Shown piece after piece: positions 41,369 to 52,617 of a DNA stretch of 52,617 nt (positions within the stretch are counted from its first letter, which is position 1; the number at the start of each line of letters is the position of its first letter). The notes under the pieces are model-generated. The model was not told the DNA's origin. It searched no databases and was given only the letters and a program-made list of their open reading frames with translations. The position numbers were made by a program, and so were the translations under genes. This DNA comes from Nocardioidaceae bacterium (GTDB taxonomy: Bacteria; Actinomycetota; Actinomycetes; Propionibacteriales; Nocardioidaceae), in contig JAICWH010000005.1 of the NCBI GenBank assembly GCA_025934895.1, positions 1 through 52,617 of the forward strand, written 5' to 3'.

Positions 41369-41421
41369 TTCCGGGTATCCGATCCCGGAAGCATTCGAGC
41401 AGGTGAGAGAGTGTTTTCTGA

Positions 41422-41469
41422 GCGCGCCCGAAGGGATTCGAACCCCTAACCTTCTGATCCGTAGTCAGA
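41422..41469 (-). other. attP: attP core: 3' half of a tRNA-Arg(ACG) gene
   Basis: Read on the minus strand this segment has the anticodon stem-loop TCTGA-CTACGGA-TCAGA (anticodon ACG), the variable region, the T-arm GGGTTCGAATCC and the acceptor 3' strand CGGGCGC. No 5' half (no D-arm or matching acceptor strand) is present, so it is not a functional tRNA. It is the sequence that restores the host tRNA gene after integration. The integrase gene starts 135 bases to the right. Confidence 0.85.
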
Positions 41470-41547
41470 GGCCAGGGCAATACGCCACCTGTCGAAACTT
41501 CCGATTTTGCTGGTAGAGACTGATTTTCGCTTTGCAGCGGCTAGCCG

Positions 41548-41578
41548 TTGCTAGCCTGAGCTATGCTACAGATAAACT
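41548..41578 (+). promoter_or_regulatory. Candidate integrase promoter
   Basis: TTGCTA (41548-41553) and TAAACT (41573-41578) with a 19-base spacer would start transcription near 41585, before AGAGGGA and ATG 41604. The promoter overlaps the right CTACAG repeats, so integrase or another protein bound there could regulate it. Confidence 0.35.
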
Positions 41579-41582
41579 ACAG
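41564..41582. promoter_or_regulatory. CTACAG direct repeats right of attP core (candidate arm site)
   Basis: TGCTACAG (41564-41571) and AACTACAG (41575-41582) are 11 bases apart and mirror the left pair in spacing and in the ATxxA bases between copies. They are probable integrase arm-binding sites that overlap the integrase promoter. Confidence 0.45.
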
Positions 41583-41603
41583 CTCCGGCAAGAGGGATCT
41601 GCT

Positions 41604-42806
41604 ATGCCACCCAAGAAGCGCCGCGGCCGACGCGGCGACGGCGCGTTCTACCAACGCAAGTCCGATGGGATGTGGATCGGCGCATACCAATACGAGGACG
41701 AGTACGGCGAAAAGCGCAGGGCGACGGTCAGCGCGGCCGACAAGGTGATCGCGCACGACAGATTCCGCGAACTGCGTACGAAGATCGACAGCGGCACTTT
41801 CCGTCCGCGCTCGAAAATGACGGTTGAACAGTGGCTTTCCTACTGGCTCGACAACATCGTCAAGAAGACCAAGGACCCGAAGACCTATGTGTCGTATCGG
41901 GGCGCAGTGAACAACCAGATCGTCCCGACCATCGGGACCAAGCAGTTGCCGATCACACCGGCCATCGTGCGCGGCCTGCTGAAGAAGGTGAGCGAGACCG
42001 ATGGATGGGGCGAGCGGACAACCCAGCTGACCTATGTCGTGCTGAACATCGCGATGACGGCCGCCGTGAAAGAGGAGGTGATCAGCAAGAACCCGTGCGA
42101 GGTGGTGGCGAAACCGAAGGTGACGCCATCGCAGGGCGTGAAGTCGCACACGTCCGAGCAGGCGCGCAAGGTCTTGCTGGCCGCGTTGAAGGCAGAAGAT
42201 CCGTATGTCACCCGCTGGGCCGCGGCGTACCTTCTCGGCGCTCGGCAGGGCGAACTGCTGGGGCTCGAACGTGACCGCGTCGACATCGATAACGCGACCG
42301 TCGAACTGTCCTGGCAGCTGCAAACATTGGAGACCCACGAGGGCGCGGCGCTGACCGATCCCGACCGGTTCATCGTCCCGGATGGTTTCGAGTGCCGGCC
42401 GCTGTATCGGAAGTTCGCACTCACCCGCCCGAAGTCGGAGCGTTCGAAGCGGCTCACACCGTTGCCTATCCCGCTGGCCGCGATCTTCAAGACCTACCTG
42501 GAGACTGCCGAGAGCAACCCTTATGACCTGATGTGGGTGACCGCCAGGAAGCAGCCGATACCGGGCAAGTACGACAACACGGCGTGGCACGACGCCCTCA
42601 AGCGGGCGAAAGTTCCTGATCTGCCGCTGCACGCGGCGCGTCATACGACCGCGACATTGTTGCAGGAGATGGGCGTCGAAGAATCCGTTCGGATGCAGAT
42701 CATGGGTCACTCCTCCGTCGCAGCGCAGCGCGGCTACGCGCATGTGAACCTCGCCTTCGCCCGGGAGGCGCTGGGCAATCTGGACGGTCTGCTTAAGTTG
42801 GGATGA
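41604..42806 (+). CDS. int: Tyrosine integrase
   Basis: 400 residues from ATG 41604, with AGAGGGA upstream; a longer ORF from 41532 would run through the promoter and attP arm. The N-terminus is a basic arm-binding domain (MPPKKRRGRRGDGAFYQR), the SAM-like core-binding domain follows at about 75-165, and the catalytic domain is at 185-395. Arg214 in GARQGELL, His343-X-X-Arg346 in LHAARH, His369 in MGHSS and Tyr378 in GYAHV are the expected catalytic residues. It inserts the phage at a tRNA-Arg gene. Confidence 0.93.
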   Translation: MPPKKRRGRRGDGAFYQRKSDGMWIGAYQYEDEYGEKRRATVSAADKVIAHDRFRELRTKIDSGTFRPRSKMTVEQWLSYWLDNIVKKTKDPKTYVSYRGAVNNQIVPTIGTKQLPITPAIVRGLLKKVSETDGWGERTTQLTYVVLNIAMTAAVKEEVISKNPCEVVAKPKVTPSQGVKSHTSEQARKVLLAALKAEDPYVTRWAAAYLLGARQGELLGLERDRVDIDNATVELSWQLQTLETHEGAALTDPDRFIVPDGFECRPLYRKFALTRPKSERSKRLTPLPIPLAAIFKTYLETAESNPYDLMWVTARKQPIPGKYDNTAWHDALKRAKVPDLPLHAARHTTATLLQEMGVEESVRMQIMGHSSVAAQRGYAHVNLAFAREALGNLDGLLKLG

Positions 42807-42911: not shown

Positions 42912-43220
42912 ATGATGGGGTCCGCGGCAGGCGAAAGCGCTTCCAGTTCGGGTCGATACAGTTCAGCGCCAGTCGGGGGTGCTGAGCCACAACAGATCCG
43001 CAACAGTCCCGGAGAACTTGCGGCGATAACAACTCCAACTCGCCTGATGGAAGAGTTGCGCCGGCGCGATCTGAGCGCCCTACTGCCCAAGTTGTGGCCG
43101 GGCGCGGAGTGCCGCCTCGCGGTTGCGGAGCTGACCGTGTCCGAGCTGATCGTTTCGGCTAGCTGGCTCGGCATCGAGCCGCCGGTACGCGCCTTCCGGG
43201 ACTACCGCACAACGCACTAG
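42912..43220 (+). CDS. Hypothetical protein, up to 102 aa
   Basis: ATG 42912 (or 42915; a shorter start is ATG 43059 region giving MEELRRRDL). The N-terminal third is Ser/Gly-rich and may not be coding. The C-terminal 60 residues (RRRDLSALLPKLWPGAECRLAVAELTVSELIVSA) look like a real folded protein. It converges with the repressor at 43217, overlapping by four bases. No family recognised. Confidence 0.5.
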   Translation: MMGSAAGESASSSGRYSSAPVGGAEPQQIRNSPGELAAITTPTRLMEELRRRDLSALLPKLWPGAECRLAVAELTVSELIVSASWLGIEPPVRAFRDYRTTH

Positions 43221-43459
43221 CTTCGCCCGCGCTCGGCGAACGCCGCCTTCAGGAAGTCGTACAGGTCGATGTCCAGCGCCGCGCAGAGGGCATCGAGCTG
43301 ACCCATCCTCGCCGACAGTGTCGCCTTCTCGATTCGGTAGATGGTGCTCTCGGATACGCCGCTGATCTCTGCCAGCTTCCCCTGACTCAGCCTGCGTTCA
43401 GCGCGTAGACCGCGCAGCTTGTCGCCTATGGCCTGGTCGACAGCGGTAATGGCTTCCAT
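43217..43459 (-). CDS. Immunity repressor candidate, Xre HTH, 80 aa
   Basis: Minus strand. ATG 43459 is preceded by 7 bases and a -10 (GATACT on the minus strand), so it is likely a leaderless start; a longer ORF from 43513 would include the promoter. Residues 10-65 form an Xre/HTH_3 domain (KLRGLRAERRLSQGKLAEIS then STIYRIEKATLS). It has no extra domain. It is divergent from the Cro-like gene at 43588, with operator dyads in both promoters, the arrangement of a phage genetic switch. Confidence 0.85.
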   Translation of the reverse strand: MEAITAVDQAIGDKLRGLRAERRLSQGKLAEISGVSESTIYRIEKATLSARMGQLDALCAALDIDLYDFLKAAFAERGRS

Positions 43460-43466
43460 ACAGAGG

Positions 43467-43496
43467 AGTATCCCGTCCGAATGGACGGCACCGCAA
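43467..43496 (-). promoter_or_regulatory. Leftward promoter of the repressor with operator dyad
   Basis: On the minus strand TTGCGG (43491-43496) and GATACT (43467-43472) are 18 bases apart. The perfect dyad CCGTCC-GAAT-GGACGG (43473-43488) fills the spacer and touches the -10. ATG 43459 is 7 bases past the -10, so the transcript should start at or next to the ATG. Confidence 0.72.
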
Positions 43497-43550
43497 GCCG
43501 GGACCTTCCGCACGCCACCAGCAAACTTCTCGATGCACCGTCAAATGTGC

Positions 43551-43580
43551 TTGCATTCCCGTCAGACTGGACGGTATTGT
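43551..43580 (+). promoter_or_regulatory. Rightward early promoter with operator dyad
   Basis: TTGCAT (43551-43556) and TATTGT (43575-43580) are 18 bases apart. CCGTCA-GACT-GGACGG (43559-43574), a one-base variant dyad of the left operator arms, fills the spacer. ATG 43588 follows after 7 bases. A further half site CCGTCA lies at 43538-43543. Confidence 0.72.
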
Positions 43581-43587
43581 CGTCAGC

Positions 43588-43821
43588 ATGGACGAATTGG
43601 TTTCTAAACTCGTAGAAATCGCCATGCAGTCCGCTGACGTGAACACCGAACGCTTGGCCGATCTGACAGGCATGGCTCGGGTGACACTGCGCAGACGCCT
43701 GAAAGAAGGCGCCTCGTTCACTGTCAGCGAACTCGACCGCATCGCGACCGCACTCGAGGTCGATTTCCTCGACCTGGTGCCCCCCAGGGGATCTCGGCGC
43801 ACGAAAGCGGCGGTCAAGTGA
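43588..43821 (+). CDS. Cro-like HTH protein, 77 aa
   Basis: ATG 43588, likely leaderless (7 bases after the -10). It shows an Xre-like helix-turn-helix: DVNTERLADLTGMARVTLRRRLKEG, then SELDRIATALEVDFLDLVP. It is the first gene of the long early operon and divergent from the repressor, as Cro is. The basic end RGSRRTKAAVK could help DNA binding. It may block the repressor promoter during lytic growth. Confidence 0.82.
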   Translation: MDELVSKLVEIAMQSADVNTERLADLTGMARVTLRRRLKEGASFTVSELDRIATALEVDFLDLVPPRGSRRTKAAVK

Positions 43822-44021
43822 CCGCCCGGGCCGCGGCGAAGACCCGCATCCGATACAGCAAGGCCGAAGCGGCAGAGCAGCTCGGCATCAGCGTGCGCAC
43901 GCTCGACAAGCTCCGCGCGGACGGGAAAATCGTCGGCCGCCTCGACGGTGGGCGCGTCTTTTTCGACCACGAACACTTGCTCGGCTATGCGAGGTCGTGC
44001 GCACCCGAGGGGACCGAATGA
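43818..44021 (+). CDS. xis: Excisionase-like winged HTH protein, 67 aa
   Basis: GTG 43818 overlaps the Cro-like stop. Residues 12-55 are a MerR/excisionase-type HTH: YSKAEAAEQLGISVRTLDKLRADGKI then VGRLDGGRVFF. Size, basic N-terminus and location after the switch and near attP fit a recombination directionality factor. It could also be a simple transcriptional regulator. Confidence 0.75.
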   Translation: MTARAAAKTRIRYSKAEAAEQLGISVRTLDKLRADGKIVGRLDGGRVFFDHEHLLGYARSCAPEGTE

Positions 44022-44949: not shown

Positions 44950-45356
44950 TGACCATCGACGAAACCGGTCCCGTATCTGGCATCGAGATCACCACGGCCC
45001 GGCATCAACGCATCGAGGAGATCGCGACCGCACGCCTGCGCGTGTCGGATTTCGTCGATGAGTTCTATCTCGACGATCTCCGTCGGCTCGTCGAGGCCGC
45101 GGCCGATATTCCGGGCGACGCCATCGTGCGACCGCACGAGAACGGCATCGACATCACGTACACCAAGACCGAATACGTCGCCGACGCGGCCGAGCAGCCG
45201 ATCGACGGGGTGACCGTCATGTCAGATGAACGTCTCGCCAGAATCCGGGCGCACCTCGAGCGCGAATGCCCGGCCGATGACGAGCCCGCCATCGACGGCC
45301 CCGAGGACTTCACCGCCGACCGTGAGCGCGACGAACGGATCGAGGCGCAAGGGTGA
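44949..45356 (+). CDS. Hypothetical acidic protein, 135 aa
   Basis: ATG 44949 overlaps the previous stop by one base. An acidic protein: ITTARHQRIEEIATARLRVSD and a C-terminal region of Glu/Asp/Arg. The repeated theme (helix, short strand GIDITYTKTEYV) suggests a small alpha/beta fold. No known family. Confidence 0.65.
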   Translation: MTIDETGPVSGIEITTARHQRIEEIATARLRVSDFVDEFYLDDLRRLVEAAADIPGDAIVRPHENGIDITYTKTEYVADAAEQPIDGVTVMSDERLARIRAHLERECPADDEPAIDGPEDFTADRERDERIEAQG

Positions 45357-45634
45357 AGGCGCACACGAAGTTCGTCACCAACTTCGCCGCGGCCCGCCAC
45401 GCGATCGGCCTCACCCAGCAGCACGCAGCCGAACGGATGCGCTACCGCCTGCACGGTGGCTGGAATACGCGCAGCGTCACCAACTTCGAGGCCGGTCGGC
45501 GCGAGGTCAACCTCGACGAGGCCGAGTGCCTCGCTGCGATCGTGTGCGTGCCGCTCGACAGGATGTTCACCGAATCCGCTACCCGCATCGCCGAGATCGC
45601 CGCATCGAACATGCAGACGGGGGCGATGCGATGA
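45353..45634 (+). CDS. Xre-like HTH protein, 93 aa
   Basis: GTG 45353 overlaps the previous stop. Residues 10-65 resemble a helix-turn-helix: AARHAIGLTQQHAAERMRYRL, then SVTNFEAGRREVNLDEAECLAAIV, with an insertion (LHGGWNTR) between helices. It lies directly before the WhiB-fusion gene and could regulate the same operon. Specific targets unknown. Confidence 0.72.
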   Translation: MKAHTKFVTNFAAARHAIGLTQQHAAERMRYRLHGGWNTRSVTNFEAGRREVNLDEAECLAAIVCVPLDRMFTESATRIAEIAASNMQTGAMR

Positions 45635-52430: not shown

Positions 52431-52617
52431 GCTACGACCGCACCGGCGAACCCGTCGACCTCGACGACCACGATCCCGCCACCTGCCCGAAGTGGCTCGG
52501 TGAGGACGACGAAGGGCGTCCGATCCCGTGCCTGCGCTGCAAAACCCACCTCGCCACCGGATCCCACATCCCTGACTACCGAGCCGACCGACCCGTATCA
52601 GACCGCGCCCGCGCGGC
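52427..52617 (+). CDS. 5' part of small cysteine-containing protein split by the contig ends
   Basis: GTG 52427 overlaps the replication-gene stop (GTGA). The visible part starts MSYDRTGEPVDLDDHDPATC and goes to the contig end in frame; it continues at base 142 and stops at 172. The full product is 73 residues. The opening DLDDHDPATC...PIPCLRC is a recurring phage small-protein pattern with probable zinc binding. Confidence 0.8.
   Translation, partial: MSYDRTGEPVDLDDHDPATCPKWLGEDDEGRPIPCLRCKTHLATGSHIPDYRADRPVSDRARA
52477..52617. repeat. Right copy of exact 141-bp terminal direct repeat
   Basis: Identical to bases 1-141. When collapsed, the early operon is continuous from 43588 through the join to 4824, which supports a circular or circularly permuted sequence. 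Confidence 0.95.

Follow-up and report, generated by a model that had tools for sequence, protein, structure and literature searches.

Two divergent HTH genes and the short stretch between them very likely form the switch between lysis and lysogeny in a tailed temperate phage with a host from the Nocardioidaceae. According to this reading, both mRNAs are leaderless, and protein dimers bound to symmetric sites in the promoter spacers block RNA polymerase. The switch lies in a stretch of 52,617 bases, the whole of the DNA analyzed, which we refer to as the window. The features of the switch and of the neighboring genes are the following (centers are relative to the A of the respective ATG, and key letters are those of the promoter score explained below):

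41532-42806, plus strand: tyrosine integrase adjoining the switch (Phage_integrase 4.7e-12; phrog_1 8.3e-52)
43217-43459, minus strand: rep, 80-aa Cro/C1-type HTH protein, probable immunity repressor (HTH_31 1.8e-11, HTH_26, HTH_3; phage regulator/repressor families)
43457-43459, minus strand: rep start codon, predicted mRNA 5' end
43460-43466, minus strand: 7-nt gap from the PRep -10 to the rep ATG
43467-43472, minus strand: PRep -10, GATACT (promoter with 5/6 key letters)
43473-43488: O_Rep, putative operator, perfect dyad CCGTCC-GAAT-GGACGG (plus strand) within the PRep spacer, center -21.5
43491-43496, minus strand: PRep -35, TTGCGG, read from the sequence
PRep as a whole, minus strand: TTGCGG / TGCCGTCCATTCGGACGG / GATACT / CCTCTGT / ATG; spacer 18, gap 7
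43551-43556, plus strand: PR -35, TTGCAT, read from the sequence
43559-43574: O_R1, putative operator, dyad CCGTCA-GACT-GGACGG with one unmatched pair, at the end of the PR spacer, center -21.5
43575-43580, plus strand: PR -10, TATTGT (promoter with 6/6 key letters; locus L005)
43580-43595: O_R2, putative operator, weaker dyad TCGTC-AGCATG-GACGA on the cro start codon, center -0.5
PR as a whole, plus strand: TTGCAT / TCCCGTCAGACTGGACGG / TATTGT / CGTCAGC / ATG; spacer 18, gap 7
43588-43821, plus strand: cro-like gene, predicted leaderless, first in the rightward operon; 77-aa HTH protein (phrog_4583 6.4e-13)
43818-44021, plus strand: xis-like gene, 67-aa protein, 4-base overlap with cro (HTH_17 2.7e-7; phrog_66 4.6e-5)

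The gene rep reads leftward from the A of its ATG at 43459 and cro rightward from that at 43588, with 128 bp between them. An initial annotation had described two mirror-image leaderless promoters, each with an operator dyad in its spacer, and its letters and coordinates for both promoters and dyads all proved correct on re-reading. The dyads indeed sit at the same place on both sides, their centers being 21.5 bp upstream of the A of the respective ATG. Both of the operator dyads it counted are present, but the count is three, because O_R2 on the cro start codon had been overlooked. The distance from O_R1 to O_R2 is 21 bp. An 18-nt repeat occurs here in three copies with spacings of 86 and 21; the third copy (43578-43595) is 72% alike to the first, and its outer bases are altered symmetrically relative to the other two. 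Repeated symmetric sites overlap both promoters, as in a divergent repressor/Cro switch.

The two strong sites are not easily ascribed to chance. When the 128-bp intergenic region was shuffled 20,000 times with its dinucleotides preserved, no shuffle contained a pair of dyads whose arms were at least 11/12 alike (0/20,000), and two contained a pair with at least 10 alike (2/20,000). The pattern CCGTC N6 GACGG occurs exactly twice in the 52,617 bases, both times in the switch, with 0.35 expected. Two or more copies were present in 8 of 100 whole-window shuffles, so that the count alone is not rare and the weight of the two dyads lies in their position. O_R2 has two mismatches to the pattern and is not significant by it, with 33 matches of at most two mismatches in the window versus 30.0 expected; it is of interest through its place and its counterparts in relatives. 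A stoperator system of the mycobacteriophage L5 or cluster A type was considered and rejected, as there are only the two exact copies, both in the switch, and the relaxed matches do not exceed those of the shuffles.

Both genes bear the sequence marks of leaderless genes. The -10 element lies about 6-7 nt before the ATG, and a Shine-Dalgarno-like run is absent before both ATGs (on the rep side, from the last 18 bases upstream), just as the initial annotation had it. In mycobacteria, a 5' ATG or GTG is described as necessary and sufficient for leaderless translation (PMC4633059). The weak points of PRep are its -10, GATACT, and its poor -35, TTGCGG.

A profile built from nine Cro-like proteins was used to search 394 genomes belonging to the class and 335 belonging to the family for related loci, to which relatives found earlier were added. 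These searches gave 37 and 49 places, from each of which 30 loci were used, four being common to both. The 80 loci at hand were reduced to 46 by dropping four unrelated ones (L001-L004, pattern matches), 13 with frames of more than 200 codons, eight exact duplicates and two without a usable start (L047, L075), and by collapsing seven that were more than 70% identical. The resulting 46 non-redundant small Cro-like loci include the nine profile seeds, and their prophage status is established for only some. For the locus of this phage (L005), the start was set by hand, as its ATG lies 12 nt from the start expected by the model, beyond the range used for the others. Promoters were scored by six key letters (TTG and TAnnnT), with a spacer of 17-18 and a gap of 6-7 to an ATG or GTG. 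These ranges were fixed after a first look at the sequences, and shuffles and control reading frames were scored alike.

A cro-side promoter with at least five of the six key letters is present in 35/46 loci, where shuffles lead one to expect 1.0, and all six letters are found in 23/46 loci (0.05 expected). When the register is moved by 3 to 30 bases, zero or one locus scores, and only two of 119 other ORFs from the same loci reach five key letters. Of the 35 promoter-positive loci, 32 are without a Shine-Dalgarno-like run ahead of the start. The remaining 11/46 loci are without a promoter. Leaderless promoters with sites in their spacers, as claimed by the initial annotation, are thus still the best reading of the region, given how often the spacing recurs in relatives.

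These results also bear on a different view of the switch, in which promoters located further upstream give leadered mRNAs, and the dyads work differently, either as hairpins in the RNA or as sites far downstream of the transcription start. For example, an in-frame GTG upstream, at 43513, could extend Rep to 98 aa, and neither PR nor PRep was detected in a generic sigma-70 scan. The scan misses both because it demands 9/12 consensus letters, and each promoter has seven. The absence of a Shine-Dalgarno-like run before both ATGs, the leaderless spacing in 35/46 relatives versus 1.0 expected, and dyads that hold their place relative to the start though their letters vary all make such a leadered switch unlikely.

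The leaderless reading is further supported by the dyads of the related loci, which we regard as candidate operators. Spacer dyads with arms of at least 6 were detected in 14 of the 35 promoter-positive loci (0.5 expected; reached by 0/200 shuffles), and start-codon dyads with arms of at least 5 in seven of the 35 (1.0 expected; 0/200 shuffles). In the same 35 loci, dyads are not enriched between these two places (-15..-5, at expectation) or in the first codons (below expectation). A further enrichment at -60..-46, with arms of at least 6 in 4/35 loci versus 0.9 expected (0/200 shuffles), is probably the site of the opposite promoter. Four of the 35 loci, namely this phage, L036, L043 and L056, have a spacer and a start-codon dyad together. 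No dyad with arms of at least 5 was present in the spacer or at the start of 15/35 loci, which indicates that some operators are imperfect or located elsewhere. Among the promoter-negative loci, spacer dyads were found in 3/11, with 0.6 expected.

The mean symmetry over the loci peaks at -0.5 (z 7.7). Unlike the start-codon dyad, the spacer dyad gives no clear signal when averaged at a single fixed distance from the start, and its enrichment depends on the range of -25..-17. A fixed-width palindrome score over -60..+15 was tried and was too weak (p 0.65 for the phage's own region), because operator width and spacer length vary; it was replaced by the arm length per region. The sequence of the start region is similar to that lying 19 bp (z 3.9) and 21 bp (z 3.2) further upstream, with z up to 3.1 at other shifts.

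While their places are little changed, the letters of the 20 candidate operators listed differ widely, and a GGAC core is common to only four of them (this phage, L007, L048 and L061). By eye, GTCC N4 GGAC, the core of O_Rep, can be seen in L007, L020, L022 and L061, possibly reflecting a shared site specificity. Operator similarity is weakly related to that of the Cro recognition helix (rho 0.22, permutation p 0.009, one of four tests, n=20); its relation to the whole of Cro, or to Rep (n=14), is not significant.

On the repressor side, 27 repressor/Cro pairs were compared, L048 having been dropped for want of a partner start. The motif TAnnnT lies 6-7 nt before a start in 20/27 pairs (0.97 expected), and a whole promoter is present in 14/27 (0.7 expected). 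Eleven of the 27 pairs have a whole promoter on both sides. Spacer dyads with arms of at least 5 occur on the Rep side in 4/27 pairs, a number (null 1.3) that was reached by 8/200 shuffles. The mirror-image layout, true as it is for this phage, is therefore rare among its relatives: spacer dyads on both sides were found in two of the 27 pairs, this phage and L023, and the strict mirror image is no family rule. Words of seven bases are common to both promoters in 21/27 pairs, with 6.8 expected and a maximum of 15 in 300 shuffles. Together, the enriched dyads and the shared words may be seen as marks of sites bound by the regulators of each locus itself.

Should the dyads instead belong to a regulator of the host, the phage would use them to sense its host, and Rep and Cro would not be their ligands. 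The initial annotation had proposed a search for the dyad elsewhere in the genome; carried out here, it gave CCGTC N6 GACGG at 51 places in 3.9 Mb, two of them in the switch, so similar dyads do exist elsewhere in the host genome. A host regulator is nevertheless very unlikely, in view of the wide differences between the candidate operators of different loci and of the words recurring at both promoters of one locus, as expected of a locus's own regulators.

The genomic context is that of a phage. The contig encodes a terminase, a portal, a major head protein, a tape measure and a RecT-like protein, and the two divergent HTH genes adjoin integrase and excise-type genes of a temperate phage. The match of the xis-like protein to the excise model TIGR01764 (1.3e-4) is below that model's cut-off. 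The first 141 bases of the contig (1-141) are the same as the last 141 (52477-52617), so the assembly either closed a circle or drew on circularly permuted or concatemeric phage DNA, the unit length being about 52,476 bp. Between the integrase and rep lies an ORF of 102 aa (42912-43220, plus strand) that overlaps the end of rep by four bases and has no family matches. In the rightward region, a further small protein (45353-45634) has a weak HTH_31 match (E 0.0012, below cut-off).

The Cro-like protein is 42% identical over 64 residues to gp38 of Arthrobacter phage Peas. It had one match of 39% in 341 family genomes, one of 40% in 391 order genomes, and none in a single-sequence search of viral contigs; alignments reached further Cro-like relatives than the single sequence did. 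For Rep, no relatives were found at E<=1e-10 in the 341 family genomes or at 1e-5 in the phage collection, nor close homologues in seven genomes of the genus at the limit used, and one relative of 39% was found among viral contigs. Its role is consequently read from position and fold family, and judging from its position, the 80-aa protein would be the repressor. That the pair is no immunity switch and serves some other function, antitoxin-like or restriction-controller-like, is highly improbable: Rep does resemble the Y4mF/HipB antitoxins (1.9e-12, below cut-off) and the controller proteins C.BclI and C.AhdI, yet none of the six proteins scanned in the region resembles a toxin or restriction enzyme, and the pair is flanked by the integrase and the xis-like gene of a phage, an arrangement shared with Bridgettevirus.

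Just upstream of the integrase, at 41420-41469 on the minus strand, the 3' half of a tRNA gene (anticodon loop CTACGGA) can be recognized by eye; ARAGORN detected no whole tRNA in the 52,617-base window. This segment is the presumed att core. A second att copy was not found in the genome, where the core is present only on this contig, even when 33 bases are sought with up to two mismatches, and hence no separate attB was found. Since the presumed core lies outside rep (43217-43459), an attP inside the repressor gene, and with it an integration-dependent immunity of the BPs type, is unlikely.

Under the switch reading, sigma-70-type promoters would start transcription of the two HTH genes exactly at the A of their ATGs and yield leaderless mRNAs. 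RNA polymerase would be blocked when a dimer of Rep and/or Cro, bound to O_Rep or O_R1, occupied DNA that the enzyme needs. O_R2 would cover both the transcription start and the start codon of cro, and because it is two helical turns away from O_R1, PR could accommodate two adjacent dimers with cooperative binding, while PRep has a single perfect site. In the lysogen, Rep would hold PR off through O_R1 and O_R2. During lytic growth, Cro, made first, would shut PRep through O_Rep, where an excess of Rep may also stop rep. The one-base difference between the arms may set different affinities, as the initial annotation suggested. Any order of site affinities, taken from their symmetry, is a guess.

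A similar geometry recurs in named phages. Ten records were scored, eight chosen from 24 listed, plus Peas and Adephagia, and a cro promoter was accepted at any in-frame start up to 60 nt from the annotated one. Peas was scored with the shorter repressor start, as annotated in GlobiWarming. A leaderless cro promoter was found in 8/10 records, namely Peas, prophiGD21-1, prophiGD33-1, Butters, Nandita, JasperJr, Anatole and Kumotta (null 0.3, at most 3). JustASigh and Adephagia have none at in-frame starts within this distance. A Rep-side promoter was present in two of eight named phages, JasperJr and Kumotta (null 0.2). In JasperJr gp41 (L087 814-850) and Anatole gp31 (L088 859-898), the cro start that fits the promoter is found 36 and 39 nt, respectively, inside the annotated gene, possibly as a result of start-site misannotation.

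A close likeness is seen in genes 32/33 of Arthrobacter phage Kumotta (MK977703), with TTGCGT-17-TAGAGT-6-ATG and the excise gene next to it. Its dyads are centered at -21.5 and -0.5, 21 bp apart, as in PR here. However, their letters are different (spacer dyad GTACTC N4 GAGTAC, start-codon dyad GTACTT N4 GAGTAC), and the Rep-side spacer is without a whole dyad (arm 3). Bridgettevirus (Peas, GlobiWarming, RootBeer and Eileen) shares the gene order, with an integrase (plus strand), an extra HTH gene (minus), the repressor (minus), an HTH gene (plus) and excise (plus). Peas has TTGCAA-17-TATGGT-6-ATG with the spacer dyad TTAGTC-ATTT-GACTAC; the operator letters of Peas and Bridgettevirus differ from those of this phage, and there is no start-codon dyad (arm 1). 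Annotations of the repressor start disagree, those of Peas and Eileen placing it 9 nt upstream of the position given for GlobiWarming and RootBeer (L009 2315-2324, L012 2306-2315).

The general plan is well known from the OR region of phage lambda, which also has divergent repressor and cro promoters, tandem operators and a leaderless cI mRNA from PRM. Unlike the switch described here, lambda has three operators in one array, a leader on the cro mRNA, and a larger repressor.

Single elements of the layout have been reported for other phages. In mycobacteriophage BPs, with its divergent repressor and Cro-like genes 33/34, OR is described as lying between the -35 and -10 of PR, and ORep, related to OR in sequence, as overlapping the transcription start of Prep (PMC4557955). 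Compared by that description, BPs differs in having attP within the repressor gene, whereas the presumed att core is outside rep here, and a 12-bp palindrome that is half of a two-part site, whereas here there is a whole dyad per spacer (PMC4557955). For the telomere phage PY54, RACE is reported to place the beginning of both the cI and the cro mRNA at the AUG, and a 16-bp palindromic Cro site precedes the repressor gene (PMC4488713). PY54 is, however, enterobacterial, and according to the same account, its Cro binds a single site, apparently without repressing its own promoter (PMC4488713). Divergent promoters, both predicted to be leaderless, are described for the cluster O mycobacteriophages (PL1/PR2), in an account that, in the part used here, names neither operators nor repressor or cro genes (PMC4351075). 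Predicted leaderless genes have been reported for mycobacteriophages more generally (PMC11373665, PMC4351075).

Thus, an operator in the spacer (BPs, PMC4557955) and two leaderless mRNAs (PY54, PMC4488713) appear to be known singly. What seems to be new here, as far as can be read from the DNA, is that both features are joined, that each spacer holds a dyad and, probably, that a third site lies on the start codon. A literature search, covering few subscription journals, found no family-wide account of this layout.

From the comparison, a positional rule may be proposed that would hold for a large group of phage switches in actinobacteria. We consider the chances even that a class of switch with fixed places and free letters is common to actinobacterial phages and phage-like loci, with the start codon as the transcription start and the operator in the spacer, on the start codon, or on both. 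In this phage, in Kumotta and in some others, the two operator places appear to be about two helical turns apart. If such a class exists, the operator letters would turn over between phages while the geometry stays, and with them, the immunity type would turn over too. A site on the start codon would make the first codons of Cro a part of the operator (Met-Asp here, Met-Ser-Thr in Kumotta). Moreover, the start codons, 5' ends and operators of many uncharacterized actinophages would become readable from sequence. The rule predicts where operators, transcription starts and true start codons lie, for example the starts 36 and 39 nt inside the annotated JasperJr and Anatole genes, and short oligonucleotides could then be used to test immunity specificity in each phage.
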